Shown in pieces: positions 24,455 through 40,181 of a DNA stretch of 45,087 bases. Numbering within the stretch: position 1 is the first letter of the stretch; every line of letters begins with the position of its first letter. A program made the translations under genes and the position numbers. Source of the DNA: Kiritimatiellales bacterium (GTDB lineage: Bacteria; Verrucomicrobiota; Kiritimatiellia; Kiritimatiellales; Pontiellaceae); contig JAIPJC010000010.1 in NCBI GenBank assembly GCA_021734345.1, positions 1 through 45,087 of the forward strand, written 5' to 3'. Under the pieces are notes generated by a model. The model was not told the origin of the DNA. It was given only the letters and a program-made list of their open reading frames with translations, and did not search any database.

Positions 24455-25870
24455 TCATTTTTTCTTTTGTTGTTTGGCTCCCGGAGCATTTTTCAGATTG
24501 GCGGTCTGCATTTCCTCGCTGTCGAGCACCGCGCCGGGATCGCCTTGCTGCGTCATCCACTTGTCCAGCTCCGCCCGGAGTTCGGTTTTGACTGCCGCGT
24601 ATTCCGGATTGCCGGCGAGGTCGGTCATTTCGTACGGGTCTTCGTTGGATTTGTACAATTGCTCCTCGGGACGGTGGCGGTAGCGGTTGTACATTTCCAA
24701 CGCGTGGGCATCCGTGTCATTCGCCTTTTTCCACGAGGCCCACCAGTGCGTATCCTCTACCGGATGTTCCATGTGCTTCTCGCTGTATTCGGCGTCGGGC
24801 GTCAAGTTCCAAATGTAGCGGAAATCCTTGCTGCGGATGGTGCGGATTGGATACGGAGGCCCTTCCGGCACGTTGTTGTGCAGGCCGTAAACATATTTGC
24901 GATGGCCTTGGCTTTGGCCAAGCAGCACATCCAGAAACCCGATGCCATCGAGGTTATATTTGGAAGCGTCGCCGCCCGCCGCTGCGATGAAGGTCGGAGC
25001 CACGTCGGCATACTGCACGAGCGCGTCGGTTTCCGTTCCGGGCTTCACCTTGCCGGGCCAGCGCACCATCATGGCGGTGTGCATCCCCTGCTCCCAGCAC
25101 GTCCACTTGTTGAACGGGAACTGCGCGCCCTGTTCCGACGTGAGCAGCACCAGGGTATTGTCCGCCTGCCCGGTTTCCTCCAACGTCCTGAGCACATCCC
25201 CCACCTGCTGGTCGAAGAGGGCGATCTCTGCGAGGTACTTGGCGAAGTCCACCCGCATTTCCGGTGTATCGGCAAAGTTTGGCGGCAGCTTGATGGCAGC
25301 ACGGTCGAACTGATCCGGATCCCCGCACGTCCAAGGCATGTGCGAATGTGTCGACGCCACGACAAGGCAGAACGGTTGCTCTGGATTGGAACCCATAAAA
25401 TCCTTGATGCCATCGCAGGTGTAATCCGCCGTGAGCGCCACGCAGTTGGGTTCGAAGCCGGGGACCTTCACGAAGGGAAAGGTCTTGGGCGGACGGATGT
25501 GCGTCTTGCCGGTCAGCCCCACACGGTAGCCCTGGTCGCCGAGATAGTGGCAGATGCTTTTGGTGCCCGGCTTGGCCACCGAATGATTCCATAGCACTCC
25601 ACTACTCATTGGATAGAGTCCGGTATAGAGCTCGGTGCGCGACGGCGTGCACATCGACATGGCCACATAGGCATGCGTGAACCGCATGCCTTCCGTGGCC
25701 AGACGGTCGATGTTCGGGGTCTTTACGTTTTGGCCGCCATAGCACCCGATCTCGGTATGGGTAAGGTCGTCTGCAATGATGATGAGCAGGTTGGGCTTCT
25801 GCGCACCGAATGCGGCTGTGCAAGCAACCGCACCGGCAAGAAATCCGCGTGCAATGATTTTTCTGGTCAT
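24455..25870 (-). CDS. Type I (S1) sulfatase, heparan-N-sulfatase-like
   Basis: About 471 residues with a signal peptide (ARGFLAGAVACTAAFGA). The sulfatase domain opens NLLIIIADDLTHTEIGCYGG, with active-site motif CTPSR (Cys74) and GKTHI in place of the usual GKWH. The stretch VLWNHSVAKPGTKSICHYLGDQGYRVGLTGKTH is the style of N-sulfoglucosamine sulfohydrolase-like S1 enzymes. It recurs in the sulfatase at 31.4-33.8 kb, so these two are subfamily relatives. The C-terminus is Lys-rich (KQQKKK). A GAGAGGAAA ribosome site precedes the ATG. Gaps of 16-18 bp to both neighbours place it inside TU C. The natural substrate is probably not heparan; subfamily resemblance does not fix it. Confidence 0.92.
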   Translation of the reverse strand: MTRKIIARGFLAGAVACTAAFGAQKPNLLIIIADDLTHTEIGCYGGQNVKTPNIDRLATEGMRFTHAYVAMSMCTPSRTELYTGLYPMSSGVLWNHSVAKPGTKSICHYLGDQGYRVGLTGKTHIRPPKTFPFVKVPGFEPNCVALTADYTCDGIKDFMGSNPEQPFCLVVASTHSHMPWTCGDPDQFDRAAIKLPPNFADTPEMRVDFAKYLAEIALFDQQVGDVLRTLEETGQADNTLVLLTSEQGAQFPFNKWTCWEQGMHTAMMVRWPGKVKPGTETDALVQYADVAPTFIAAAGGDASKYNLDGIGFLDVLLGQSQGHRKYVYGLHNNVPEGPPYPIRTIRSKDFRYIWNLTPDAEYSEKHMEHPVEDTHWWASWKKANDTDAHALEMYNRYRHRPEEQLYKSNEDPYEMTDLAGNPEYAAVKTELRAELDKWMTQQGDPGAVLDSEEMQTANLKNAPGAKQQKKK

Positions 25871-25888: not shown

Positions 25889-27535
25889 TTATTTAGGCAT
25901 GGTTTTATACCACTGGTTCCATCCCGTAATCATGAATTCCTTCTTTTCGGGATATTGATCGGATACGTCTTCCGTCTCGGTCGGATCCTTGGCCAGATTA
26001 TAGAGACTCCACTGGTTCGGTGTATCGCAGTTTGAAACCAGCTTCCAATCTCCCGACCGAACGGCCCGACCCTTCGCGTGTTCGAAATAGATCGTCTCGT
26101 GCCCTTGGCGTGCACCCGTCGCAAATACCGGCAGAAGGCTTATACCATCCATGGGAACAATTTCATGCCCGTCGAATTTTGCAGGATACTTTGCACCAGC
26201 CAGTTCCAGACAGGTCGGCATGATATCCATCACATGGCCCAACGCCGGCGAAAATGAACCGGGTTTCTGCTTAAGCCCGGCCGGCCAATGGACAATCAGC
26301 GGCGTATGGTTGCCGCCTTCGTACGACTCCTTCTTCCAGAAGCGGTACGGGGTGTTGGCCGCATTGGCCCACGCCTCGCCAATCCCGGTGTAGCTTTCTT
26401 CGGAGCCTATCAGCTCGGGATGCAACCTCAAGTCGTCGTCGCGCTGCATGGCGCGGCCATCGCGGGTTTGGCTGGGACGGTCGTAGCCCGGCGGGAAAGT
26501 GGGCACTTCCGGACTCGCACCGTTGTCGGAGAGGAAAAAGATAAGGGTGTTGTCGAACTGCCCCGTCTCTTTCAGCGCCGCGACCAGTTTGCCAATGCCT
26601 TGATCCATCCGATCGACCATGGCGGCGTGTACCTCCATCTTGCTCGACTGGAACCGGCGTTCTTCCTCGGAGAGTGCATCCCAGTCTTCCTTGGCATCGA
26701 GCGGCGGCAGCACCAGCTTGCCTTTATCGAACAGGCCCAAGCCAACCTGCCGATCAAACCGCTCCTTGCGCAATGCGGCCCAACCTTCGTTGTAGCGGCC
26801 TTTGTATTTCGCGATATCCTCCGGCAAGGCATGGATCGGCCAGTGGGATGCGCACTCGGCAAAGTACATGAAGAACGGTTTGCCTTCCTTGCTGAATTCG
26901 CGAACGTACTCGACCGCCTTGTCACTGATCGCGTCCGTGAAATAGAAATCCTTGCCCACCGTTGCGACCGGTTTTGTTCCCTCAACCAAGCTGAACGGAT
27001 CAAAGAAATCAATGACGCCCCAGATGACGCCGTAGAATTTGTCGAAGCCGCGGTTGACCGGATAGGACTCTATCGGGGAAAAGGGCACGCCGGGATCGAT
27101 CTGGTGGTTCAACCACTTCAGGTGCTCCTCCTTTTCAAGCTGCTTATCCACGGAAAGGTGCCACTTCCCGACCATGGACGTCTGGTAGCCCGCCCCCTTC
27201 AACACCTCGGCGATGGTTACGGCGTTGAGGCTCAGGCTACGTCCATTCTTAGCCAGGTTGGCTTGGTGGGCGTATATGCCGGTCAATAGGCTGGCGCGGG
27301 TGGGACTGCACCGGGAGCAGTTGTAGAACTGCGTGAACCGAACTCCCTCCTTGGCGAGGGCATCCAGGTTCGGGGTTTGGATTTCCCCGCCGTAGCAACC
27401 CACATCGGAAAAGCCCAAATCATCGGCTAGAATTACAATGATGTTCGGGCGGGAATCTGCACCCCATACCCCCATGGTCGCCATCAAAATCCCGCCTATT
27501 GCCCATGCCCCAAAAAAGCTTTTCTTCAAATTCAT
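25889..27535 (-). CDS. Type I (S1) arylsulfatase, secreted
   Basis: About 548 residues. A signal peptide (FFGAWAIGGILMATMGVWGA) precedes PNIIVILADDLGFSDVGCYGGEIQTPNLDALA, the classic AtsA-like start. The active-site motif is CSPTRASLLTG (Cys76); GKWHLS and FLSDNGASPE supply further catalytic and metal residues, and GNHTPLIVHWPAG is typical of the long arylsulfatase type. A strong AGGAAGGGA site precedes the ATG. Spacing of 18 bp to the downstream sulfatase and 36 bp to the upstream sulfatase fusion supports co-transcription in TU C. Its core is similar to the sulfatase domain of the upstream fusion protein. Confidence 0.94.
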   Translation of the reverse strand: MNLKKSFFGAWAIGGILMATMGVWGADSRPNIIVILADDLGFSDVGCYGGEIQTPNLDALAKEGVRFTQFYNCSRCSPTRASLLTGIYAHQANLAKNGRSLSLNAVTIAEVLKGAGYQTSMVGKWHLSVDKQLEKEEHLKWLNHQIDPGVPFSPIESYPVNRGFDKFYGVIWGVIDFFDPFSLVEGTKPVATVGKDFYFTDAISDKAVEYVREFSKEGKPFFMYFAECASHWPIHALPEDIAKYKGRYNEGWAALRKERFDRQVGLGLFDKGKLVLPPLDAKEDWDALSEEERRFQSSKMEVHAAMVDRMDQGIGKLVAALKETGQFDNTLIFFLSDNGASPEVPTFPPGYDRPSQTRDGRAMQRDDDLRLHPELIGSEESYTGIGEAWANAANTPYRFWKKESYEGGNHTPLIVHWPAGLKQKPGSFSPALGHVMDIMPTCLELAGAKYPAKFDGHEIVPMDGISLLPVFATGARQGHETIYFEHAKGRAVRSGDWKLVSNCDTPNQWSLYNLAKDPTETEDVSDQYPEKKEFMITGWNQWYKTMPK

Positions 27536-27571: not shown

Positions 27572-30500
27572 CTACTCGTACCGGATCATGATGAACAGGC
27601 GGTCCTGCTCCGGATCCGTCACGGTAATCTCCAGATTGGCCTCTTCATAATCCGGGTTCTCCGGTATCGGCACGGCGGAAACCTCGGTCGCCGCTTCCAG
27701 AACCCAATCAACCAGATTGGTGGACGAATAGACATTGTAGCCGACCCCGGCGGATGCCGCATCTACCAACCGCCGCATCCCGAACCGGACTTGCCCGGCG
27801 GAGACCGGAACCGACAACAGGGTCAGCGGGCGGATATCGGCATCGGCCACGGTGGGATCCGATCCGATCAGCCATTCCAGATAATTGGAGCGGCCATCCC
27901 CGTCCGGATCGCTGTCGTTGGCGGCATCGCTCCCGCTCAGTCCTGCTGCCAGCGCGTAGCCGGAAGCCAGCGACGAACCCAACGGGAAGGTACGGATCGA
28001 CAAGTTGTCGATCTCCGCATGATCGGTTGCGCGGGCACTCAAGCCGATATAGTTTTTCGCGGTATTTTGCCAATTGAAGATACGCGTCATGCTGTTGGGG
28101 TTGGCTGTGTTGATATCCAGCCGGACGCCGTTGAAGTAGACGCTGGCCTCGACGGGCGCACCCGCGGAAAAGCTGCCGAGCGCAAACGCCGCCGTGAGCC
28201 GACCGTTCGTCGCCCCGGCCGAAACGGTGTCCAACAACGTCCCGTTGCTCCACACCTTCACGTTTCCATCCACGTCGAGATCGACGAAAAAGTCCGCCTT
28301 GCCGATTGGGTTGTTCGTGCTGCCCCGGAAGCTTTTCGTTCCGGAAATATCGCTCCCGGCGGCGGCTTCCGTGGCGGTCATCCCCACCCCGAAGCCAGCA
28401 TAGCGATCCATCGGTTGCGAGGTGCCGCTGTTGATTGCGGTGACATCCATTTCAACCACAAAACCGCCCGCATCCAGAATGGACTGGTTGGTGAAGTTGT
28501 TCATGATGCCGCTCTCGGACATGCCCGCGCCAACCGCCATGCGCAACGCCCCGCCGAACACTTGGATGTTGTCGGGGGTCTTGGGGCCCTCGTACCCTTC
28601 GTAGTGGACCGCATTCGGCAGCCATGCGATGGCTCCACTCACACCGTTGGTGGTTGCGTCGATATCGGAAAGGTCGTTGCGGTTGAAGGTATCGAGCAGC
28701 AGGTCGGTGCTCTGCATGCCCGGACCGGAAAGTTTCGGCAGCGACAGCAGCCGCTCGGACGGAACGCCTACGCGTTGCGCCCACGCGTTCCAGGCATTGA
28801 CCATCGCGACGAGACGGTCGGGATGGTCCATGGCGACGTTGTTGAGTTCGGTAGGATCGGTCAGCATGTCGTACAATTCCAGCGTGTCGGCAAAGGACGA
28901 CCAGTCCGTGGTCGTGAAGGTTTTCGTCACTAGCTTCCAGCGTCCGTCGCGCCATGCGCGGGTCGACTCGTGCTCGAAGCCGATCTGCCGGTCGAATTCC
29001 GGTCCGTCGTTGAAGATGGGCACAAGGCTTTCGCCTTCCATCGGCAGCACGACATGTCCGTTGTACTGGGTTGGGAAGGTCGCACCCGTCACATCCACCA
29101 CGGTGCGCATGATGTCGATAAGGTGGCCGGTCTGGTTGGACCAGCGTCCGGGATTGGCAATGCCTTCCGGCCAGTGGACGATCAGCGGCGTGCGGATGCC
29201 GCCTTCATGCGAATAGCGCTTGTAGTAGCGGAACGGCGTGTTGGCCACGTTGGCCCAGCCACCGCCGATATGGATTCCGTCGCCGACAAACGGCTGTCCC
29301 ATGTTGTCCAGATCGGTTCCCGTGAGCGGTGCATGGTTGGCCGTGCCGAAGGCACTGCCGTACAGGCCGCCTTCGGCGTTGCCGCCATTGTCCGAAAGCA
29401 GGAAAATCAGCGTGTTGTCGAAGCGTCCGGTCAATTGCAGGTGTTCGACAATCCGTCCAACCGTCCCGTCGATCTTGTCGATCATCGCCGTGTAGAGCGC
29501 CATCCTGCGGGTCAAATCCGCCTTGCGGTCGGCAGCGAGCGTGTTCCAGGCCGGGACCGCCCAGTATGCCCCGCCGCCGTTGTAGGGCGTGTCGCTCGTC
29601 GGCGCGAGCGAGAAGGTCCCGTCGATCACACCGAGCGACAGCATCCGGTTGTACCGGTTCTGCCGCACGACATCCCACCCCTGGCTGTAGATATCGGAAT
29701 AGGATTGCCCGCCCGGCGGCGTGTATTCCGCCAGCGAAAGCGGAGCCGCGATGGAGAAGTGCGGCGCGTTGAACGGGAGATAGAGAAAGAACGGCGCGGC
29801 ATCGCCTTTGGATTGATGGTGGTTGATGAAATCAAGGCTGTAGTCCGCCAAGGCGTCGGTCTGGTAGAACTCGTACGCATTGGTTCCGTAGACGCGGGTT
29901 GGAATCTCGTTGCTTTCCGAGGTGAACTTGTAGTCGGTGCTGTCCCAATAGTCCGCGCCGGCGCCGGCACCGCTGGGCGTGAAGCCGAACACCTGCCGGA
30001 AGCCGCGAACCCACGGCACCTTGCCCACCGTGGCACCCAGATGCCATTTGCCGGCCATGTAGGTGCGGTAGCCCTCTGCCTTGAGAACCTCCGCAATGGT
30101 GGAGTTGTTGTCCTCGCGCAGAGGCGGGAGCGAATCGCCGGGAACGGTGACGACCTGGTGGGTGTAGTTGCCGGTCAGCAACGCCGCACGGGTCGGGCTG
30201 CAGCGGGCGGTGTTGTGGAAATCGCGGAAGCGCAATCCGCTCGTCGCCAAGGCATCGATGTTCGGCGTGCGGGCCTCGCCGCCGTAGCAGCCGAAATCGG
30301 AATAGCCCATGTCGTCGACCAGCATCACGATGATGTCCGGCCGGGTTTGAACCACCGGAGGAACCGCATCGGCATACTCGGTTCCGATCCGGATTTCATC
30401 CAGCCCGCTCTCGTTCTGCAGGTTGATGAAGAGATTGCTGAAAACCTGGTTCCCGCCAAAATCGAAATCGGTCTTGCTGTAGAACCCGTCCGATCCGGCC

Positions 30501-31183
30501 AGGGCGGAGCCGGTCCATGTTGCGGGAACGACGACGTTGCTGGACAGATTGATAATGTGGTAGCTGATCTCGTCCGCCGCACCGATGTTGTTGACCAACC
30601 GGCCCACCACCAACCGCACGGCCTCCGGATCTTCGGGAACCAGCACCTCGTTGGAATTACCCTTCTGCATTGTATTGGTATCGCCCAGCCAAACTGAAGC
30701 ATTGAAGCTTTGCGCCATGTTGGGCTCGTCTGCGTTTTGCAACAACTGGGGGTTGGCCCCGACCGAAACGAGCGTATCGGGAAAAGCCGTTCCCATCCCA
30801 TTGCCCAGTCCCATGTTGGCGCGCCGGGTTCCCTTGACGATCATGCTGAAGTAGAATGTGTCGCCCTCGGCAAAGTCCACGGGCGATGCCAGCGGACGGG
30901 TAAAGCGGTTGTTGCTTGTGCTTGAATCGTTATGGACATAGCCATCCACCATGGCGCGGCGAAAGCCGTCGACCCCAGCCACCGTCAAACCATAGTTCTG
31001 CCCTCCAGTCAGCAATTCGCTGGTGTTCCCGGGCGAGGTCAATGTGACAAACCGGGCGATGGACGTCCACCCCGGCACGTCGTTGGAGGTATCGCTCGCC
31101 GTCGCGAAATGCTCATCGACCAGCAACACGGCATTCGCAAAACCGACGTGCAGCAACATGGTCAGCAATAACAGCTTTCTCAT
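27572..31183 (-). CDS. Large secreted protein: S1 sulfatase core between two beta-sandwich regions
   Basis: About 1203 residues. A signal peptide (LLLLTMLLHVGFANA) is followed by a ~250-residue lectin/LamG-like sandwich, then the S1 sulfatase (about 280-760). This opens PDIIVMLVDDMGYSDFGCYGG, with CSPTRAALLTGNY (Cys about 328), GKWHLGA and FLLSDNGG. A second LamG-like domain (about 775-1035, starting LLDTFNRNDLSDID) and the Asp-rich linker DSDPDGDGRSNYLEWLIGSDP lead to the C-terminal sandwich. Most S1 sulfatases are 450-600 residues, so the flanks likely bind glycan or cell surface. The ATG at 31183 has AGGAG five bases upstream; the longer open frame (to 31264) would run through the dyad operator. 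First gene of TU C. Confidence 0.9.
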   Translation of the reverse strand: MRKLLLLTMLLHVGFANAVLLVDEHFATASDTSNDVPGWTSIARFVTLTSPGNTSELLTGGQNYGLTVAGVDGFRRAMVDGYVHNDSSTSNNRFTRPLASPVDFAEGDTFYFSMIVKGTRRANMGLGNGMGTAFPDTLVSVGANPQLLQNADEPNMAQSFNASVWLGDTNTMQKGNSNEVLVPEDPEAVRLVVGRLVNNIGAADEISYHIINLSSNVVVPATWTGSALAGSDGFYSKTDFDFGGNQVFSNLFINLQNESGLDEIRIGTEYADAVPPVVQTRPDIIVMLVDDMGYSDFGCYGGEARTPNIDALATSGLRFRDFHNTARCSPTRAALLTGNYTHQVVTVPGDSLPPLREDNNSTIAEVLKAEGYRTYMAGKWHLGATVGKVPWVRGFRQVFGFTPSGAGAGADYWDSTDYKFTSESNEIPTRVYGTNAYEFYQTDALADYSLDFINHHQSKGDAAPFFLYLPFNAPHFSIAAPLSLAEYTPPGGQSYSDIYSQGWDVVRQNRYNRMLSLGVIDGTFSLAPTSDTPYNGGGAYWAVPAWNTLAADRKADLTRRMALYTAMIDKIDGTVGRIVEHLQLTGRFDNTLIFLLSDNGGNAEGGLYGSAFGTANHAPLTGTDLDNMGQPFVGDGIHIGGGWANVANTPFRYYKRYSHEGGIRTPLIVHWPEGIANPGRWSNQTGHLIDIMRTVVDVTGATFPTQYNGHVVLPMEGESLVPIFNDGPEFDRQIGFEHESTRAWRDGRWKLVTKTFTTTDWSSFADTLELYDMLTDPTELNNVAMDHPDRLVAMVNAWNAWAQRVGVPSERLLSLPKLSGPGMQSTDLLLDTFNRNDLSDIDATTNGVSGAIAWLPNAVHYEGYEGPKTPDNIQVFGGALRMAVGAGMSESGIMNNFTNQSILDAGGFVVEMDVTAINSGTSQPMDRYAGFGVGMTATEAAAGSDISGTKSFRGSTNNPIGKADFFVDLDVDGNVKVWSNGTLLDTVSAGATNGRLTAAFALGSFSAGAPVEASVYFNGVRLDINTANPNSMTRIFNWQNTAKNYIGLSARATDHAEIDNLSIRTFPLGSSLASGYALAAGLSGSDAANDSDPDGDGRSNYLEWLIGSDPTVADADIRPLTLLSVPVSAGQVRFGMRRLVDAASAGVGYNVYSSTNLVDWVLEAATEVSAVPIPENPDYEEANLEITVTDPEQDRLFIMIRYE

Positions 31184-31243
31184 CCAGTCTCCTAATACCC
31201 CTATGTGGAGGTATCTTCTACCACAATTCCGGCAGCAATGTCT

Positions 31244-31263
31244 TGTCGCCAAAACTGGCGACA
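31244..31263. promoter_or_regulatory. Perfect 20-bp dyad operator upstream of TU C
   Basis: TGTCGCCA-AAAC-TGGCGACA is a perfect 8-bp inverted repeat with a 4-bp spacer, ending 61 bp before the start codon at 31183 and downstream of the terminator of the preceding gene. A copy with one mismatched arm base lies at 33898-33917. The symmetry and length fit a dimeric helix-turn-helix regulator. The response regulator encoded at 37050 is the only DNA-binding protein in the window, which makes it a candidate but not a proven partner. Confidence 0.75.
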
Positions 31264-31313
31264 CGGCTGGATTCCAATGCGTTCACGCAACCGATGGGAA
31301 CAAATGTGCTTCC

Positions 31314-31346
31314 AAAACATATGAGCCGGGAAACCCGGCCCATATG
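31314..31346 (-). terminator. Intrinsic terminator of TU D
   Basis: In the minus-strand direction the RNA forms a 13-bp stem (arms at 31346-31334 and 31330-31318, one G-U pair, including CATATG and GCCGGG) with a 3-nt loop, then UUUU. It lies about 38 bp past the stop codon at 31384. This separates the single-gene TU D from TU C, whose operator and start follow directly. Confidence 0.85.
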
Positions 31347-31383
31347 CAATCCATCCGAAAACATAATGCACCGCGGCAGAAAC

Positions 31384-33816
31384 TCATAGCGAGTCCGCAA
31401 CGGTTCCGATGATTTCATATTGAATCGGACCGGCCGACCAGGCGCTGATGTCGCTTGTGCCGTTTGGCAGTGTGGCCAGCAGTCCATACGGCGCTCCGCT
31501 GATGCCGGGAATTCTTCCGCCGGTTTCTCCCACAGAGCGGGTCGCGGTTCCGATGTAGCCGGTGAAAAACTGAATCGCGACATCCGTTGAACCGGACGAG
31601 CCGCCATCCACGATGTACGACAGTTGGAAGTCGGTCGAACTGGTTTTATGGTCCAGGGTTTGCCGAATGGTGATGGTTTTCCCAAAGTCGGACGGATCCA
31701 GCACAGCGGACAGGTTCAACGCACCGTCAAGCGAGGTGGAGGTGCATCCGGAAAAGACCAGCATATCGCCCATGAGAGCCAGCGAAATCCCGTCGCTGCC
31801 CCCGAATTTCCATAACATCTGTGCCTTGTCGGCGGCGAGTGGTTGGGCGGGCAGCTGGGCCCGCACGGTCAGGGTTATATCGCGGTCATTAAGAATCGGT
31901 TGAGTGGCACCAAGGGTCGCCGTAGGGTTCGCGGTTCCTGAAAAATAATTGGTTGGTGCGCCGGTGTAGTCCGCCAACGAATTGATTCCGATCCGATAGA
32001 AGCGGTGCGGAGTCGCATTGGTTTCCGTTACCCGCATCACCACTTGCTCCATTAACGGATCGAAGGTGAAAGCAGGATATCCTGCGACCATTCCGGGCAC
32101 GGTTGTCCAACTGTTGGATGACAGTGCCGAGCAGGCTTCAACTGTAAAGAACTGGTTCCAACCAGCATGGTAGACCGACCGGTCGAAAACCAGATCGGTG
32201 ACTGCATTGGGGCCGTCGGAATAGGATGTTGTTGAAAGAATTTTTATTCCGGGTTCCAGGGTGGCAGCAAGCGGATCCGAGTTTTTCAGCCATTCAGTAA
32301 GGTTGTTATCCCCGTCGTCGTCGGGATCGGCCGCAGGAGTTCGATCCGCCATCCAGACAAAGGGAAAGCGGTTGGCCCATGCATCGTAGGGATGCGCTTC
32401 GTCTGCAACCGGGACTGCGGTGATGTCGGCCGCCAGTTCGGTGGCCACACCCTTGTCGCGTTGCCAACCCATCCAGTCCTGCAACCGTTGCTTCATGTCG
32501 GCGATTTTTCCGATGTATTGCGGATCATCAATGAGGTTGTTCAGTTCGTATGGATCGGCCTGCATATCGTAAAACTGGTAGGGCGGTCGGTTCATTATGC
32601 GGTCGACAATCAACTGGGCGTGTGCACGGTCGGAAGGATCGGCGTTGGTATCGGCGGCCAGAGCTTCCCACGAGGGGAACGGCGGGCCGGTGAATCCTCC
32701 TATGCCGTACGTATTGGTGTTCTGAAGATTCCAGATCAGCTCGTAGCGGGAGTCGCAGACCGAGCGGATCGCGAAGGGGCCGACGGCACCTTCGATCCCG
32801 ACAGTGGTTTGTTCGGCATAGGCATACTGTTTGTGATAATCCCTTTTACCTTCAAGCACCGGGAGAAAACTCAAACCGTCGAACCGTTCCAGCCCGGTCG
32901 GCGGTGAGCCGCCAGCGGCATCAATGAGCGTTGGAAGGATGTCCACCAGTTCGACCACGGCCTCGGTGGAGGTTCCGGGAGCAACGCGACCCGGCCAACG
33001 GATGATGCATCCGGTATGGGCGCCGAGGGTGTAGCAGGTCCACTTCCCGCCGGGAAGCGATGAACCCTGTTCCGTCAGACAGATGAAGATCGTGTTGTCC
33101 GGATCGGAACTGTTGGCCACTGCATTCATCCAGTACCCGACTTCCGAGTCGAACACGTTGACTTCCTTCAGGTATTTGTTGAATTGCGCACGATATGCCG
33201 ACGTGTCCACATAATCCGGTGTTACCGGCAGTGTGGAATTATCAGCAACATAGTCGCCGTGGTTCCATGGCGTATGCGGACTGTGCGACGTAACGATCAG
33301 GCAATAGGGCTGGTTCGGATCTCGGGCCATGAATGCTTCGGCCAACGCCCGGTTTGCTGGATTTTCAGTTGAGTCGTCGACATCATCCCCGAGGAGTTCA
33401 AAAGGAAAGGATTCCACCGGGCCAAAGTGCCGTTTACCCATCAATCCCACGCGATAACCCAGTGCGGAGAGATGGTGAACGATGCTTTTCGTGCCCTCTT
33501 TCACCTCGCTGTGGTTCGGATAGGCGCCGTTCCGCACCGGATAGATGCCGGTATAAAGCTGCTGCCGCAACGGTGCGCACGTGGGCGAGGCATTGTAGCA
33601 ACGGTCGAAGCGCAGCCCCTGCCCAGCCAATGTCTGTATGTTCGGCGTCAGATCGCCCGGCATGTCGCCGGGGGCATGCCCGCCCGGCCGGCCGTAATAG
33701 GGACTGCAATCCCGCCAGTTCATGTCGTCCGCCATGATCAGCAGGATGTTGGGCTGGGTCGCCAAACCATTGCCGGCACACAGCAGCACGATTCCCAGTA
33801 GTATCCTTGCCCTCAT
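31384..33816 (-). CDS. Type I (S1) sulfatase with atypical CAPLR motif and C-terminal sandwich modules
   Basis: About 810 residues. The signal peptide (ARILLGIVLLCAGNGLA) is followed by an S1 sulfatase (about 22-480) opening NILLIMADDMNWRDCSPYYG. The active-site motif is C-A-P-L-R (Cys about 80). It satisfies the minimal CxPxR pattern for formylglycine formation but has Leu where Ser, Thr or Ala is usual. The flanking PNHSEVKEGTKSIVHHLSALGYRVGLMGKRHFG resembles heparan-N-sulfatase-like enzymes and the sulfatase at 24.5-25.9 kb. Beyond it come the Asp-rich linker DPDDDGDNNLTEWLKNSDP, a small sandwich (containing HRFYRIGI) and a ~180-residue LamG-like C-terminus. The ATG at 33816 has AAGGAG five bases upstream. 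It is divergent from the two-component genes and is followed by a terminator. Confidence 0.9.
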   Translation of the reverse strand: MRARILLGIVLLCAGNGLATQPNILLIMADDMNWRDCSPYYGRPGGHAPGDMPGDLTPNIQTLAGQGLRFDRCYNASPTCAPLRQQLYTGIYPVRNGAYPNHSEVKEGTKSIVHHLSALGYRVGLMGKRHFGPVESFPFELLGDDVDDSTENPANRALAEAFMARDPNQPYCLIVTSHSPHTPWNHGDYVADNSTLPVTPDYVDTSAYRAQFNKYLKEVNVFDSEVGYWMNAVANSSDPDNTIFICLTEQGSSLPGGKWTCYTLGAHTGCIIRWPGRVAPGTSTEAVVELVDILPTLIDAAGGSPPTGLERFDGLSFLPVLEGKRDYHKQYAYAEQTTVGIEGAVGPFAIRSVCDSRYELIWNLQNTNTYGIGGFTGPPFPSWEALAADTNADPSDRAHAQLIVDRIMNRPPYQFYDMQADPYELNNLIDDPQYIGKIADMKQRLQDWMGWQRDKGVATELAADITAVPVADEAHPYDAWANRFPFVWMADRTPAADPDDDGDNNLTEWLKNSDPLAATLEPGIKILSTTSYSDGPNAVTDLVFDRSVYHAGWNQFFTVEACSALSSNSWTTVPGMVAGYPAFTFDPLMEQVVMRVTETNATPHRFYRIGINSLADYTGAPTNYFSGTANPTATLGATQPILNDRDITLTVRAQLPAQPLAADKAQMLWKFGGSDGISLALMGDMLVFSGCTSTSLDGALNLSAVLDPSDFGKTITIRQTLDHKTSSTDFQLSYIVDGGSSGSTDVAIQFFTGYIGTATRSVGETGGRIPGISGAPYGLLATLPNGTSDISAWSAGPIQYEIIGTVADSL

Positions 33817-33897
33817 CCGTTCTCCTTCAACGGCCATATCCACAACGCCCGAAAACATGCTTCCACCCGCACTGTACCATTCATCGCGATTTTGGCA

Positions 33898-33917
33898 TGT
33901 CGCCAGAACTGGCTACA
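33898..33917. promoter_or_regulatory. Dyad operator in the divergent region (second copy)
   Basis: TGTCGCCA-GAAC-TGGCTACA matches the perfect dyad at 31244-31263 with one arm mismatch and one spacer change. It lies 82 bp before the minus-strand sulfatase start (33816) and 10 bp before the -35 box of the plus-strand promoter. From there it is centred at about -55 relative to the inferred start of transcription, a position typical of activators. One site could control both directions. Confidence 0.7.
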
Positions 33918-33927
33918 AATCCGGGCT

Positions 33928-33956
33928 TTGATTGTTCTAAGCGATTACGCTATATT
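33928..33956 (+). promoter_or_regulatory. Sigma70-like promoter for the two-component operon
   Basis: TTGATT (33928-33933), a 17-bp spacer and TATATT (33951-33956) match the vegetative promoter at 4/6 and 5/6 positions with ideal spacing. Transcription would start near 33963, 30-70 bp ahead of the possible kinase start codons. The dyad operator abuts it on the upstream side. Confidence 0.6.
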
Positions 33957-33991: not shown

Positions 33992-36900
33992 GTGAAGGCG
34001 GGAGTGGCCATCAAATCGAGGTTTTTACACGTGCAACACGGTTTCCAGCATCGGATCGTCCACGGCTTGCTGGCCGGCCTCCTTTTGGGGACGTTGCCTG
34101 CGACGGGAATGCCCGAAGGAACGGTGGTTCCCGTAAAAAAAACGGGGCGATACATTGTCACCAACTGGCGGGTGAAGGATGGGCTGCCGTTCGACCAGAT
34201 CCGCGATATCGTCCAACGGCGGAATGGATTCATCTGGGTGGCCACGCTCAATGGTGCGGCGCGATTCGACGGGGTCCAATTCCAGATTTTCAATACACGC
34301 ACCTCATCGAATCTCGCGAACAATTCCATCAGCGCCCTATTCGAAGACCGCGAAGAACGTCTCTGGCTCGGCCACGATACCGGCCACCTGACCGTGCGGA
34401 TCGGGCATGCGTTCCAATCGATCACCCTCCCCGACGACTGGCCCAAGGAACCGGTGATCGGGTTTGTCGAAGAATCCAATGGAACGGTCTGGGCCATGAA
34501 CCGCGTCGGGGATCTGCTGCCGCTCGACGGCGAAAAAAGCGGTGCCATGAAACCCCATTGGCGAGCCATGGCATCGGCATCAACCGGGCGGTCTGCCATC
34601 CTGGCCGTTCACGGCGACCGGATCGTCACCTACGCCGGCAACTCCCTGCCCCTGGGCTCGACACTCATGGGCGACTACCGTCTGACCGGCTTTTCCAAGA
34701 CCTTTCCGGGCAGCGGCAACAGCTTGTGGATTTTGACGGCGGGCAGGTTGCGACGGTGGAGCGCAAACAAGTGGGTCGAGGATATCGGGGAGGTTCCGTG
34801 GCAGGACATGGAAGGTACAACCCTGATTGAAAGCAGCCAGGGCGCGATCTTTGCCGGGAGCCAGAAAGAAGGATTATTTGTCTTCGACCGGCAGGGCGGC
34901 GTGGAACGGCTGAACCGCGGAAACGGCATGGAGCACAATGAAATCCTGTGCCTGTACGAAGACCGGGAAGGCACCATCTGGGCAGGCACCGGAGCGGGGC
35001 TTTCGGCCATACGTCCGCGACGCATCAACATGGTCTATACGGCCGATGCGTGGAAGCATCGGTTCCTGCGCTCCGTATCCCCCCGCCTGGCCGGCGGGGT
35101 ATGGGTGGGGACGGACGGGGGCGGCCTCTACAGCGTCAACGGCCAGGAGGTGCTGCATATGGGGCAGGAATCCTCGCCTACATCCGTGCAGACCGTGCTG
35201 GAAGATGATCAGGGAACCGTCTGGCTGAACTCCCAGAAAGGATTTCTTTGCCGGATGGATGATGCCGGACTCCGGGAAATCCCCCCTCCCCAGCCGGATG
35301 CCGTGTCCATCTCCGCGCTGTACCAGGAGAACAATGGTATGCTGTGGGCCGGCGGATTGCATGGACTCTGGCGCTGGAACGGGGTTGCTTGGAACCAGAC
35401 CCTCCCCGATCAAAACCATCTATCGGATATACGCTGCATCACCGGCGACCACGAGGGGGCCGTTTGGTTCGGCATGGCGTCCGGCGGTCTGGGGCGCCTG
35501 TACAACGGGAAGCTGGAGCAGTATGGCAATGCAGACGGATTGCCAAGCGAATATATCCGCGCCTTGTATTTTGATCAGGACGACGATTCCCTGTGGATCG
35601 GCACCTGCGGCGGCGGACTGGCGCTGTGGCGGAAAAGCGGGTTCTCAACCCTTTCGGACGAACAAGGGATGCCGGGGAATGTGATTTCCTTCATCCTGGA
35701 CGACCGGCGGAACCGCCTGTGGATGGTTACCAACCAAGGCCTCGCCGTGGTGGATAAAAACGAACTCAAGCGCGTGGTCGACGGGGAGTTGCCGTACGTC
35801 AGCCCCCTGCTGCTCGATTCAAGCGACGGGCTTTCCATGCCGAATATGAGCGACGGGCTGCAGGCTGGCTGCCGCACGGCGGATGGACTGCTCTACTTCG
35901 CAACCGACGGCGGATTGGTGATGGTCAATCCCGACGACGTGCAGCGGCGCAGCAACCCCATCCAAGTCCTCATGAAAACCCTGCTGGTCAACGACCAGAC
36001 CATCCCGTTGCCGTACAATCAGCCGATCCATCTCCCGCCGGGGGTTCACCGGCTGAACATCCAGTACACGGCACTAAGCTTCATCTCCCCGCACCGGATC
36101 CGGTTCATGTACCGATTGACCGGACACGACACCGACTGGATCGACGCGGATACCCGGCGCATCGCCATGTACCAGCACCTTCCGCCCGGTGCCTACCAAT
36201 TCGAGGTGAAGGCGTGCAACAGCGACGGTGTCTGGAACCAGCAACCGGCATCCCTTGATTTCACGGTCCGTCCGTTTTTCTGGGAAACCTGGTGGTTGAA
36301 AGGCCTCGTCATACTCGCCGGAACCCTGCTCGCCGTCGTCCTTTCGCTGGGCGTGGCTGAACGGATCAACCGACGTAAACTGATCCTTGCCGAGAAACTG
36401 CGGGCAGTCGAACAGGAGCGCACCCGCATTTCCATGGATATCCATGATGAAATCGGCGCCGGGCTGACGCGCATTTCCCTGCTTAGCCACCTGATCGGCA
36501 ATGCGTTCAAATCCCGTGAAGAAAAAGTCCCCTCCCGGCACATCAATGAAATGGAGCAGGTCGCGGCAAAACTCGTCCGGGCGCTGGATGAAATCGTATG
36601 GGTCGTCACGCCCAGAAACGACACGCTGGACAGCCTCTCCGCCTATCTCGCAAAATACGTGGCCAACTACCTGCGCGAAACCGATATCCGCTGCACGCTG
36701 GATATTCCCATCGACCTGCCGGACTGGGCCGTTCCCGGCCCCATTCGCCACAACCTTTTCCTCGCCGTCAAGGAAGCCGTCAACAACATCGTTAAACATG
36801 CGGAAGCCACCGACGCCACGTTTTCAATGGCCGTCGGACGGGATTCTTTCAGCATCATCATCCGGGACAATGGAAAGGGCGTCGGCGACCGCGCCGACGA

Positions 36901-37033
36901 CCGGTTCCGGCGCGGACTTACAGGCATGAAAGAACGAATGGAACTGATCGGCGGACACTTTGAAATCAACGAAAACCCAGCCGGCGGCGCGATCGTCACC
37001 ATGACCCTTCACAAGGGATCCATGCACACTTGA
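33992..37033 (+). CDS. Sensor histidine kinase with periplasmic beta-propeller (Reg_prop/Y_Y_Y) input
   Basis: About 1013 residues. A signal peptide is followed by a large periplasmic propeller of two-component-regulator repeats (IWVATLNGAARFDG, IWAGTGAGLSAI, LWIGTCGGGLALW), a Y_Y_Y domain (about 655-768) and one membrane helix (about 771-790). The cytoplasmic HisKA_3 dimerisation domain has phosphoacceptor His about 818 in ISMDIHDEIGAG; a HATPase_c domain has EAVNNIVKHA (N box), DNGKGVG and GLTGMKERM. There is no fused receiver or AraC domain, unlike Bacteroides hybrid sensors. It probably senses an oligosaccharide and signals to the response regulator 16 bp downstream. The start is uncertain: GTG at 33992 lacks a clear ribosome site, and GTG at 34031 (GAGG nine bases upstream) gives a cleaner signal peptide. 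Confidence 0.9.
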   Translation: MKAGVAIKSRFLHVQHGFQHRIVHGLLAGLLLGTLPATGMPEGTVVPVKKTGRYIVTNWRVKDGLPFDQIRDIVQRRNGFIWVATLNGAARFDGVQFQIFNTRTSSNLANNSISALFEDREERLWLGHDTGHLTVRIGHAFQSITLPDDWPKEPVIGFVEESNGTVWAMNRVGDLLPLDGEKSGAMKPHWRAMASASTGRSAILAVHGDRIVTYAGNSLPLGSTLMGDYRLTGFSKTFPGSGNSLWILTAGRLRRWSANKWVEDIGEVPWQDMEGTTLIESSQGAIFAGSQKEGLFVFDRQGGVERLNRGNGMEHNEILCLYEDREGTIWAGTGAGLSAIRPRRINMVYTADAWKHRFLRSVSPRLAGGVWVGTDGGGLYSVNGQEVLHMGQESSPTSVQTVLEDDQGTVWLNSQKGFLCRMDDAGLREIPPPQPDAVSISALYQENNGMLWAGGLHGLWRWNGVAWNQTLPDQNHLSDIRCITGDHEGAVWFGMASGGLGRLYNGKLEQYGNADGLPSEYIRALYFDQDDDSLWIGTCGGGLALWRKSGFSTLSDEQGMPGNVISFILDDRRNRLWMVTNQGLAVVDKNELKRVVDGELPYVSPLLLDSSDGLSMPNMSDGLQAGCRTADGLLYFATDGGLVMVNPDDVQRRSNPIQVLMKTLLVNDQTIPLPYNQPIHLPPGVHRLNIQYTALSFISPHRIRFMYRLTGHDTDWIDADTRRIAMYQHLPPGAYQFEVKACNSDGVWNQQPASLDFTVRPFFWETWWLKGLVILAGTLLAVVLSLGVAERINRRKLILAEKLRAVEQERTRISMDIHDEIGAGLTRISLLSHLIGNAFKSREEKVPSRHINEMEQVAAKLVRALDEIVWVVTPRNDTLDSLSAYLAKYVANYLRETDIRCTLDIPIDLPDWAVPGPIRHNLFLAVKEAVNNIVKHAEATDATFSMAVGRDSFSIIIRDNGKGVGDRADDRFRRGLTGMKERMELIGGHFEINENPAGGAIVTMTLHKGSMHT

Positions 37034-37049
37034 ACAGAGGACTCCATAG

Positions 37050-37685
37050 ATGAATAAAATTTTCACAGTGGCCGTTGTAGACGACGACCGGGGAACACGC
37101 GAACTACTGGCCGACCGCATCGGGGAAGAATCCGACTTCCGATGCGTCAACATCTATGCCGACCCGCTGGCGGCCATCGCCGGGTTGCCAGCCGACCATC
37201 CGGACATCGTGCTGATGGATGTCAACATGCCCGGCATGACCGGTATCGAATGCGTCCGCCAACTCAAGCCGATCATGCCGAACACGGATTTTGTGATGCT
37301 CACGGTCTACGACGACACCCACTATATTTTCGAAGCCCTGGCCGCCGGGGCGGTCGGCTATCTACTCAAGCGCTCCGCCGGGGAGAAACTGATCCAGGCC
37401 TTGCGGGATGCAACACAAGGTGGTTCGCCGATGGATAGCGATATTGCCCGGAAGGTGGTGCAGTCGTTCCAGACTCCACCACAGAAGGAATCGGAGGAAC
37501 TGGAAGCGCTGTCCGACCGGGAGCGGCAGGTACTGGATCAGCTGGCGCAGGGACGCCTCTACAAGGAGATCTCCGAGGAACTCGATATCTCCATCCATAC
37601 CGTGCACACGTACATTCGCCGCATCTATGAAAAACTGCACGTCCATTCCCGCTCGGAGGCCGTGGCAAAACTCTCTGGATTGTAA
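37050..37685 (+). CDS. NarL/FixJ-family response regulator
   Basis: 211 residues. The receiver domain (1-120) has acidic pocket D11-D12, phosphoacceptor D57 in LMDVNMPGMTG, T85 and K107. The C-terminal LuxR-type helix-turn-helix (about 148-205) reads LSDRERQVLDQLAQG, then ISEELDISIHTVHTYIRRIYEKL. This pairing with a HisKA_3 kinase is standard. It should be phosphorylated by the kinase encoded just upstream and act as a dimeric DNA-binding regulator. It is the only DNA-binding regulator in the window, so the dyads at 31244 and 33898 are candidate sites. AGAGGA sits eight bases before the ATG. Confidence 0.95.
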   Translation: MNKIFTVAVVDDDRGTRELLADRIGEESDFRCVNIYADPLAAIAGLPADHPDIVLMDVNMPGMTGIECVRQLKPIMPNTDFVMLTVYDDTHYIFEALAAGAVGYLLKRSAGEKLIQALRDATQGGSPMDSDIARKVVQSFQTPPQKESEELEALSDRERQVLDQLAQGRLYKEISEELDISIHTVHTYIRRIYEKLHVHSRSEAVAKLSGL

Positions 37686-37733
37686 AACCCGATTTTGGAA
37701 ACACCTGTTTATCGACGACGGAGGAACGGCAAG

Positions 37734-40124
37734 ATGATGACTAAAAGATGGAAACTACCGGCCATGTTTCTAGTGGCCATTTGCATGGGAAGCCTTGCTG
37801 CGGACTGGAAACCGGTCGAGGGAACGCTGATGACCCGTTGGGCGGCCGAGGTTGACGCCAACCATCCACTGCCGGACTATCCCCGCCCGCAAATGGCGCG
37901 AGAGAACTGGATCAACCTCAACGGCCTTTGGAATTATGCGATACAACCCAAGGCGGATCCGGTTCCGCAGTCATGGCAGGATCAAATTCTGGTTCCCTTC
38001 TGCGTTGAATCGGCTTTGAGCGGAGTTATGAAACCCCTGACTCCCGATCAAAAACTGTGGTATCGCCGGACATTCCGCACACCGGATATGAACAATGGGA
38101 AACGCCTGTTGCTCCATTTTGGAGCCGTGGATTGGGAAAGCCAGGTATGGGTCAATGGCGTGCTGGTCGGATCCCACAAAGGCGGCCATGATCCATTCAG
38201 TCTCGATATTACCAAGGCGATCACCAACGGAAGCAATGAAGTCATAGTCTCCGTTTGGGATCCCACGGACACCGATAGCTATCCGCGTGGAAAACAATCC
38301 CTCCATCCTAAAGGTATCTGGTACACCGCGGTCAGCGGCATCTGGCAAACGGTGTGGCTGGAGACCGTACCGGATTGCTATATCAGCTCGTTGAACGTGC
38401 AAGCCGATACCCGACGCGTCACCTGCCGCGTCTCCACCGGCGGGTCGCCGTGCGCAGACGGGGAAACCGTCCAGATTTCTGTGATGGAAAACGGCCAAGT
38501 CAAGGCTGCCGTCGAAGGACAGCCGGGCGAAACCATTTCCATCAACGTACCGGAGGCCAAGCAGTGGTCGCCCCAGAATCCGTTCCTCTATGACCTGCAT
38601 GTGGAGATGAAACGCGACGGGAAACGTCTGGACCGCGTGACGAGCTATTTTGGAATGCGAACGATCGAAGTGCGTCCGGATGACCGTGGGCAGCAACGGC
38701 TCTTCCTGAATGGCCGGGCGGTCTTCCAGCTTGGATTGCTGGATCAAGGCTGGTGGCCCGATGGATTGTACACCGCCCCGACGGACGATGCCCTGCGCTA
38801 CGACATCGAGATCACCAAGCGGCTCGGTTTCAATATGATCCGGAAACATGCCAAGACCGAACCGGACCGGTGGTACTACTGGTGCGACCGTCTCGGCCTG
38901 CTGGTTTGGCAGGACATGCCCAGCGGAACCCCCGATATCTGGCAACCGGGAAATCTCTGGGTCCGTCCGGAACATACCGAGGAAGTCCAACGCTCCCCGG
39001 AATCGGCTGAACAATTCAACCACGAACTCATGGCCATCATCGACGCCTTTCGCAACCACCCGTCCATCATCATGTGGGTTCCCTTCAACGAAGGATGGGG
39101 ACAGCACGATGCCGTCCGCACCAGCGAAAAGGTGAAACGCTACGACCCCTCGCGGCTGGTCAACGCCCATAGCGGATGGCTGGACCTGGGTGCCGGCGAC
39201 CTGATGGACATCCATCATTATCCCGGCCCCGGCATCGAGCTCGCCAAAGGCCGCGCAAGCGTGCTAGGCGAATTCGGAGGCCTCGGACTTCCTGTAACGA
39301 ACCATCTATGGGGTTCCGACCGCAACTGGGGCTACCAGACGCTGGATACCGCCAGCGAGCTTGCAACGGAATACAAGCAACTGATCCAGACCCTCTACAG
39401 CCTGACGGGACTCGGCATGGCGGCCGCGGTCTACACGCAGACCACCGATGTCGAGGGAGAGGTCAATGGACTCATGACCTACGACCGGGCCATTATCAAA
39501 CTGGATGAAAGCTGGCTCCGCGATGTCAATTCAAAGCTCTACGGCCCACCCGCAACCACGCTCCCCATGCTGCTCTCCTCTGAAAAAACACCGCAAACCT
39601 GGAAATATCGCATCGGCAATCCACCCGATGGATGGGAACAACCCGGATTTACGGATTTGCAATGGCTTGATGGCCCGGCGCCGTTTGCCGACAAGAAAAA
39701 CCCCTTCTACCCATTGGGAACCCTGTGGCCGGAAAAGAAGATATGCATGCGCAGGAATTTCCAGCTCACGAAAATCCCGCCCATGCTCACCATCCAAACC
39801 GCGTTCAATCTGGATGACCTGGAAGTGTACATCAACGGGGTGAAGGTTCTGGATCAGGAAAAGGACCGGGACAAGTTGCGGGGGCATACTTCGCGGCACT
39901 ATCAATTCATCGACATTTCCGAGCACGTAAGCGCCCTCAAAACCGGAGCGAACGTCATCGCCGTCAAAGCCCGGAAAAACGCGGAAGAACGGCTTATCGA
40001 TATCGGCCTGTACGGCACCTGGCCCTACCCCATGGAAGCCTCGACCTGCTCGTTGTTCCAACCTGATCTGCGGAATGTTGGACTCGCCATGTCGATGCCC
40101 GCGAACCAGCGCCTCTTTCCCTGA
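37734..40124 (+). CDS. GH2-family glycoside hydrolase (beta-galactosidase/glucuronidase type)
   Basis: About 796 residues with a signal peptide (LPAMFLVAICMGSLAA). The order is GH2-like: sugar-binding jelly roll (about 55-215: NLNGLWNYAI, WYRRTFRTP, VWVNGVLVGSHKGGHDPFSLDIT), Ig-like domain (about 216-310) and TIM barrel (about 315-600). The acid/base Glu453 is in WVPFNEGWGQ and the nucleophile Glu513 in VLGEFGGLG. A further sandwich follows at the C-terminus (about 640-785). It should remove a beta-linked sugar; galactose, glucuronate or others are possible. The ATG at 37734 follows GGAGG; an in-frame ATG directly after it would serve equally. It starts 48 bp after the response regulator gene, so it probably belongs to the same operon. 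Confidence 0.92.
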   Translation: MMTKRWKLPAMFLVAICMGSLAADWKPVEGTLMTRWAAEVDANHPLPDYPRPQMARENWINLNGLWNYAIQPKADPVPQSWQDQILVPFCVESALSGVMKPLTPDQKLWYRRTFRTPDMNNGKRLLLHFGAVDWESQVWVNGVLVGSHKGGHDPFSLDITKAITNGSNEVIVSVWDPTDTDSYPRGKQSLHPKGIWYTAVSGIWQTVWLETVPDCYISSLNVQADTRRVTCRVSTGGSPCADGETVQISVMENGQVKAAVEGQPGETISINVPEAKQWSPQNPFLYDLHVEMKRDGKRLDRVTSYFGMRTIEVRPDDRGQQRLFLNGRAVFQLGLLDQGWWPDGLYTAPTDDALRYDIEITKRLGFNMIRKHAKTEPDRWYYWCDRLGLLVWQDMPSGTPDIWQPGNLWVRPEHTEEVQRSPESAEQFNHELMAIIDAFRNHPSIIMWVPFNEGWGQHDAVRTSEKVKRYDPSRLVNAHSGWLDLGAGDLMDIHHYPGPGIELAKGRASVLGEFGGLGLPVTNHLWGSDRNWGYQTLDTASELATEYKQLIQTLYSLTGLGMAAAVYTQTTDVEGEVNGLMTYDRAIIKLDESWLRDVNSKLYGPPATTLPMLLSSEKTPQTWKYRIGNPPDGWEQPGFTDLQWLDGPAPFADKKNPFYPLGTLWPEKKICMRRNFQLTKIPPMLTIQTAFNLDDLEVYINGVKVLDQEKDRDKLRGHTSRHYQFIDISEHVSALKTGANVIAVKARKNAEERLIDIGLYGTWPYPMEASTCSLFQPDLRNVGLAMSMPANQRLFP

Positions 40125-40181
40125 TCGTGGAAGATGGTCAAGTGTATTTTGTTTACCGAAAATAAAACCAAAAGGAGCTCC

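Follow-up and report, generated by a model that had tools for sequence, protein, structure and literature searches.

The stretch of DNA analysed here (the window) comprises 45,087 nucleotides of contig JAIPJC010000010.1 from Kiritimatiellales bacterium (assembly GCA_021734345.1) and carries two 20-bp dyads, operators 1 and 2, in the promoter regions on either side of a sulfatase gene, next to a two-component system composed of a histidine kinase and a NarL/FixJ-type response regulator. Comparisons of sequences within and beyond the genus Pontiella indicate that the NarL-type regulator encoded nearby very probably docks at these palindromes. We consider it likely, with few reservations, that they serve as operators for the two-component system encoded in the window, through which the regulator would activate genes for sulfatases, glycosidases and secreted proteins. 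The regulon proposed in a first-pass annotation of the window is thus supported and is larger than the window, three further sites being located outside it in the same genome. In the mechanism envisaged, the membrane kinase, with a β-propeller sensor (Reg_prop/Y_Y_Y), would sense breakdown products of sulfated polysaccharide and phosphorylate the regulator, two steps suggested by the domain content of these proteins. A regulator dimer would bind the dyad with one helix-turn-helix (HTH) per half-site TGTCRCC, as co-occurrence, position and an association between residue and base suggest. Placed at about −54 to −35 by the alignment of sites, the dimer could contact RNA polymerase at the −35 element and would be expected to turn on genes for sulfatases, glycosidases and secreted proteins; in some loci, the operon encoding the regulator itself would be among its targets.

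Scanning of the window locates TGTCGCCA-N4-TGGCGACA at 31244-31263 with no mismatch and at 33898-33917 with one mismatch. The only third match at up to three mismatches, 12535-12554, has three mismatches and lies within an open reading frame (ORF). Shuffled windows contain a mean of 0.42 matches at this threshold, and three matches were reached in 0 of 100 shuffles. Both good sites are intergenic: operator 1 is 60 bp from the likely ATG (31183) of the 1203-aa sulfatase, and operator 2 is located between the likely start of the 810-aa sulfatase (33816) and the kinase (33992). The two dyads described in the first-pass annotation, one perfect and one with a single arm mismatch, are therefore real. 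In the genome to which the window belongs (G000; 3.25 Mb, 176 contigs, completeness 84.8%), the asymmetric form TGTCGCCARAACTGGCKACA has five exact copies and its next-best matches have three mismatches; a looser pattern, TGTMRCCWRWTYWGGYGACA, is fully matched at the same five places and next at two mismatches. The asymmetry of the site is consistent, the same change in one arm (GGCTACA) being present in four of the five copies. The symmetric pattern at up to three mismatches yields 60 matches per strand versus 15 for the reversed control, and the matches listed are mostly at three mismatches, such that the signal is clear in close copies only.

The window regulator contains a receiver domain (PF00072, E 3.6e-24) and a C-terminal GerE/LuxR-type HTH domain (PF00196, E 1.8e-18), and D11, D12, D57 and K107, including the Asp phosphoacceptor and the conserved Lys of the receiver, are invariant among 10 aligned regulators. 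These features place it in the NarL/FixJ family. It is distinct from NarL proper, scoring 120.7 bits against the NCBIfam NarL cut-off of 250, and among the NCBIfam matches listed (25 of 92 models) none reaches its cut-off for the regulator, NarL being the best. The Reg_prop, Y_Y_Y, HisKA_3 and HATPase_c domains are found together in one protein in the window kinase, in the scanned kinase of genome G005 and in all three scanned kinases from outside the genus.

Close relatives of the regulator (at least 56% identity) constitute a lineage present in five of the 28 genomes of the genus (G000, G005, G004, G021 and G016). The extended motif TGTMRYYNRWTTWRGYGACATGAC, counted at up to two mismatches with the reversed pattern as a control, has 48 matches in the 28 genomes, 46 of them in the five lineage genomes, compared with one for the control; construction accounts in part for the totals of G000, G004, G005 and G021, but not for the clustering or the control. 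The matches are distributed as 22 in G005, 10 in G004, nine in G021, four in G000 and one each in G016, G008 and G024. All 22 matches in G005 (8.7 Mb) are confined to C1:2,591,377-2,818,525 (~230 kb), the region of its three lineage copies (2604107, 2634884 and 2796836). The same genome encodes 22 other NarL-type relatives, the nearest of which, among the 21 matches listed, lies ~115 kb outside the motif stretch. Similarly, the nine matches of G021 are all located at C3:410-468 kb, around its single lineage copy at 443711. In the 2604107 system of G005, one site precedes the kinase ORF by 46 bp, as would be expected for autoregulation. Random scatter of the motif, named beforehand as a refutation of the regulon, is contradicted by the five clean copies in the own genome and by this concentration where the regulator lineage occurs. 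At two mismatches, the symmetric form is mostly at control level across the genus except in G000 and G005, and the relaxed 20-mer is above control by count in G000 and G004 and at or below it in G005, G021 and G016. The whole-genome counts of the extended motif and the outgroup tests constitute the less biased part of the evidence.

For the outgroup, genome contigs scanned with an alignment of the regulators yielded 80 loci, of which six from Pontiellaceae (L071-L075 and L128) were dropped. The 74 loci used (1.12 Mb) are mostly titled Verrucomicrobia or groups thereof, such as Limisphaerales, Pedosphaera and Opitutaceae. A 20-column matrix trained on Pontiella sites scores above 16 bits 32 times in these loci versus once in the control, and above 12 bits 72 times versus five; both strands enter these counts, and a single palindrome may thus be scored twice, in the control as well as in the data. 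Independent of any matrix, 40 TGT-N14-ACA dyads with at least six of eight arm pairs were found, 15 of which are no more than 250 bp from the regulator gene, a density 18 times that found elsewhere. A palindrome-constrained de novo search by expectation maximization in 147 regulator flanks recovered TGTCacCA.ta.TGgtGACA with a gain of 256, compared with 128-140 for three sets of distal regions and 87-91 for three Markov sets; these served as the six controls instead of reversed sequence, which is uninformative for a palindrome because it scores equally. A search without the symmetry constraint had returned a motif from coding sequence, where the upstream kinase gene probably ends, and was replaced by the constrained one. 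At 11 bits, the de novo matrix has 87 sites, 40 of which fall in the 36 kb (of 1.12 Mb) that lie no more than 250 bp from the regulator, in 35 of the 74 loci. Upstream of the regulator, 15 of 16 such sites are centred −47 to −72 from the match start, and downstream, 19 of 24 are centred +20 to +123 from the match end. Conservation of the motif depends on its form: the exact string TGTCGCCARNNYTGGCKACA is found in two of 58 genomes, both within the genus, and is not conserved outside it, whereas the relaxed form is. The regulator at 37050, suggested earlier as the binding partner, is very probably that partner, as judged from its co-occurrence with the sites in genomes and regions and from the de novo motif beside its relatives. 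One outgroup regulator, from a metagenome-assembled contig titled Akkermansia muciniphila (L098), groups tightly on the tree with that of isolate Pedos-510 (L149), and the taxonomic label of L098 may be wrong.

A further link between regulator and dyad is provided by the residue of the recognition helix that aligns, by eye, with NarL Lys188, a DNA-contacting residue; the window regulator has H there. In the outgroup, operator position 6 is C in 26 of 28 half-sites of H-type regulators, and C in eight and T in 22 of 30 half-sites of N-type regulators (Fisher P 1.9e-7, computed without correction for ancestry and hence too small as given). In Pontiella, where sites were assigned by hand to the nearest paralogue, H-type regulators are in full agreement with C at this position (10/10 and 16/16). 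A tree of 85 regulators requires at least five changes of H and at least four of N on well-supported branches, and the association therefore does not trace to one event. It supports, short of proof, a direct contact between regulator and operator. More tentatively, and a little below an even bet, pairs of Reg_prop kinases and NarL-type regulators may have spread in Verrucomicrobiota and been duplicated with polysaccharide loci, the helix residue (H, N or R) setting operator base 6 and its neighbours and each paralogue serving its own set of promoters; if so, the wiring of sulfatase loci would be readable from DNA alone.

The position of the dyad relative to promoter elements was derived from 54 non-redundant sites scoring above 20 bits in 29 loci with a matrix of the dyad and the five following bases (maximum of the reversed control, 13.9), a total that is not unbiased, as 19 of the loci were fetched because they hold or adjoin a pattern match; the other 10 comprise the window and loci retrieved by regulator. 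In the direction of the genes, the dyad leads into the −35-like hexamer ATGACA at columns 20-25, and a −10 element is seen 17 bases after ATGACA, in columns outside the matrix training. Among 49 rows (five G021 rows being left out as near-copies of G005), the −10 columns show T43 in 33, A44 in 27 and T48 in 29, with an extended −10 G41 in 26 (binomial P 7e-5 to 3e-7). Column 43 is the start of TAnnnT in 18 of the 49 rows, and no other column is in more than four. With −35 and −10 aligned in this manner, the dyad extends from about −54 to −35 around a centre at −44.5, a placement that suggests class-II-type activation and agrees with the activator-like position abutting the −35 box noted for operator 2 in the first-pass annotation. 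The corresponding window elements are AAGACA-18-TAGAAG and ATGCCA-16-TACAGT, each before a sulfatase. Towards the kinase, operator 2 lies ~56 bp upstream of the expected start of the promoter TTGATT-17-TATATT.

Several observations weigh against the assignment of these dyads as activating operators of this system. With respect to co-occurrence, G016 has a lineage member (60%) and yet a single match, on a different contig; G008 and G024, without a lineage member, have one two-mismatch match each; and the relaxed and extended patterns were drawn partly from G000, G004, G005 and G021, where they were counted. In the outgroup, 39 of the 74 loci lack an 11-bit site at 250 bp or less from the regulator, even though the matrix had been trained on those flanks. 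The residue correspondence is imperfect in that R-type regulators go with C as H does (12 of 14 half-sites) and the N-type Pontiella loci are mixed, with T at position 6 in just 17 of 40 half-sites. The C110 site of the own genome lacks an adjacent TGACA, and its consensus orientation faces a 108-aa ORF rather than the 648-aa ORF 94 bp off. As for the promoters, TAnnnT stands exactly at column 43 in a minority of rows, so that the −10 is a tendency; a plain sigma-70 scan around the window sites gives two promoter matches versus 2.0 in shuffles, no excess, and misses both sulfatase promoters. ATGACA is itself a fair −35, matching five of six positions of the standard element, and activation is therefore not forced.

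This last point bears on the alternative that survives best, in which the same regulator is a repressor that overlaps the first −35 base and blocks polymerase until the signal releases it. The dyad ends within the −35-like hexamer, and a promoter with such a −35 may need no help; however, the whole dyad is located upstream of the core promoter and mostly at one spacing, which is activator geometry, comparable to that of LuxR, which activates at a lux box centred near −42. NarL-family regulators of catabolic genes are, moreover, mostly activators, and we judge repression unlikely, though it deserves a hearing. Binding by another transcription factor, for example of the LacI, AraC or GntR type, with the two-component system a mere neighbour, is disfavoured as improbable: palindromes of ~20 bp are common to many families, but these sites track one regulator lineage, adjoin its gene in distant genomes and tend to vary at base 6 with the helix residue of the regulator. 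An RNA hairpin or attenuator, or a dispersed repeat, in place of a protein operator is rejected as very improbable. The dyad self-pairs on either strand and some own-genome copies share a few flanking bases, namely CGGGCGG (C110 and C119:2899) and CTGTCA (both C119 sites), but the dyad is upstream of the aligned −10 and hence untranscribed from that promoter, and beyond those bases the flanks of the five copies differ. Chance similarity of two palindromes has a negligible likelihood and is likewise rejected, since GC-rich palindromes do recur at three mismatches but five exact copies are separated by a gap from the next matches and the motif is recovered beside distant regulator relatives.

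Two features of the sites are of additional note. At 33893-33898 (GACATGACA) and in the aligned sites, the half-site end is repeated (GACA-TGACA), and the −35-like hexamer could serve as a third monomer contact. Pairs of dyads ~30-35 bp apart, in opposite orientation, are observed between divergent genes at G005:C1:2647267-2647321 (L037:17268-17322), flanked by sulfatase and GH2 genes, and at G004:C87:45413-45461 (L063), flanked by GH97 and GH43 genes; such pairs are perhaps shared two-way switches.

The genes behind the sites are consistent with a role of the regulator in polysaccharide use. In the loci read from G005, there are 25 sites, and the 20 first genes scanned encode six sulfatases, five glycosidases (two GH43, two GH2 and one GH92), the kinase itself (once), five proteins without a family, and one protein each with Calx-beta/PKD, PEP-CTERM and leucine-rich repeats. 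The 14 scanned in G004 comprise GH67, GH3, GH97, GH43, GH92 and GH2 members, one sulfatase and seven others (an MFS transporter, an esterase, a phosphoesterase, a radical SAM protein, a pectate-lyase-like protein, a Big_5 protein and one without a family). Two of five were scanned in G021, a sulfatase and a BNR_4 protein. The five genes scanned beside outgroup sites are more varied (penicillin amidase, LamG/Ig, DUF6797, SMC_N and one without a family), and the regulator lineage is thus not tied to sulfatases everywhere. In the own genome, two sites fall on C119, a contig that carries an additional sulfatase gene. One is 93 bp before the gene for a protein of 629 aa, which has passenger-type repeats and ends, as judged by eye, in a PEP-CTERM-like segment; the other is 77 bp before the gene for a secreted-looking protein of 379 aa. 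The C110 site is located between the 108-aa minus-strand ORF and a gene for a 648-aa secreted-looking protein. Neither the 648-aa nor the 379-aa protein has a family in Pfam or NCBIfam. The protein behind the C110 site (L016:4394-6304) resembles a TIM-barrel glycosidase by eye in its C-terminal half and, on that resemblance, is a candidate new enzyme. Within the window, the gene set claimed for the regulon is upheld by Pfam for the four sulfatases but not for the "sialidase-fold" protein at 21499-24438, which has no Pfam match and displays Asp-box-like strings by eye.

The domain architecture of the window regulator, a receiver followed by a GerE HTH, is shared with DevR/DosR, VraR/LiaR and NarL, and its sequence matches in the PDB are DevR (3c3w), VraR (7ve6 and 4gvp) and NarL (1a04). 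The DosR box is likewise a 20-bp palindrome, and in this group half-sites are read by the recognition helix of the HTH. The window-type operator, TGTCRCC-N6-GGYGACA, is unlike the boxes of DosR and NarL, and the system is set apart from those of DosR, VraR and NarL by its Reg_prop sensor kinase and its sulfatase and glycosidase targets. The Reg_prop/Y_Y_Y sensor and the control of glycan-degrading clusters are features in common with the hybrid two-component systems of Bacteroidetes, in which sensor, kinase, receiver and AraC-type HTH reside in one polypeptide. In the window, by contrast, two proteins share these functions, a kinase and a regulator with an HTH of the GerE/LuxR type, so that the system is not a hybrid one. 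The 20-bp dyad beside the −35, placed as in class II activation, is reminiscent of quorum-sensing LuxR at the lux box, although LuxR has an autoinducer domain where the window regulator has a receiver. By analogy, the operator-regulator pair appears to resemble DosR/LuxR-type activation in mechanism, the pair itself being new and its kind known.

Kinases and regulators beside glycosidases and sulfatases have been described in P. agarivorans, where substrate sensing was suggested (PMC10880615). That study concerns the same genus and gene neighbourhood; no operator, regulon or pairing of regulator and site was found in it, and the word "promoter" is absent from its main text. Pontiella strains F1 and F21 encode 521 and 480 sulfatase genes, respectively, and neither "regulat" nor "promoter" occurs in the main text of that report (PMC7356697). 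In the literature searched, which leaves most subscription journals outside its coverage, no title or abstract opening describes an operator for this system, and no account was found of how Pontiella chooses the sulfatases that it expresses. An operator tied to a regulator makes this choice testable in cultured strains, P. sulfatireligans F21 being among the genomes compared. Prediction of the polysaccharide-degrading genes switched by such regulators can begin, and the uncharacterised secreted proteins behind the sites gain a predicted role in the use of sulfated polysaccharides.

Features of the window and copies of the operator in its genome
Feature	Position	Strand	Basis or remark
Secreted-looking protein, last of unit C	21499..24438	-	Asp-box-like strings by eye; without Pfam match
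Sulfatase, unit C	24455..25870	-	Pfam
Sulfatase, unit C	25889..27535	-	Pfam
Sulfatase, 1203 aa, first gene of unit C	27572..31183	-	PF00884; ~280-aa N-terminal extension
−10-like TAGAAG	31215..31220	-	sequence, −10 column of alignment; 18-bp spacer, TGG before it
−35-like AAGACA	31239..31244	-	position by analogy with aligned sites; first A is last dyad base
Operator 1, perfect dyad	31244..31263	-	gene direction TGTCGCCAGTTTTGGCGACA; upstream of 1203-aa sulfatase
Sulfatase, 810 aa, unit D	31384..33816	-	Pfam
−10-like TACAGT	33871..33876	-	sequence, aligned sites; 16-bp spacer, TGG before it
−35-like ATGCCA	33893..33898	-	sequence, aligned sites; towards 810-aa sulfatase
Operator 2	33898..33917	-	gene direction TGTAGCCAGTTCTGGCGACA; divergent sulfatase/kinase region
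Sigma-70-like promoter TTGATT-17-TATATT	33928..33956	+	consensus match only; towards kinase
Histidine kinase	33992..37033	+	Pfam: Reg_prop, Y_Y_Y, HisKA_3, HATPase_c
NarL/FixJ-type response regulator	37050..37685	+	proposed operator binder
GH2 family glycosidase	37695..40124	+	9 bp after regulator
GH106, alpha-L-rhamnosidase family	40134..42854	+	
Exact copies of TGTCGCCARAACTGGCKACA, own genome	C4:31244, C4:33898, C110:4247, C119:2899, C119:8946		

The GH2 and GH106 genes follow the regulator at 9-bp gaps (37695-42854) and may be part of the kinase-regulator operon; their presence hints at a sulfated rhamnose-containing glycan. Between unit D and operator 1, an inverted repeat, CATATGAGCCGGG-AAA-CCCGGCCCATATG, was noted by eye at 31318-31346; it is not followed by a T run and is possibly the terminator of unit D.

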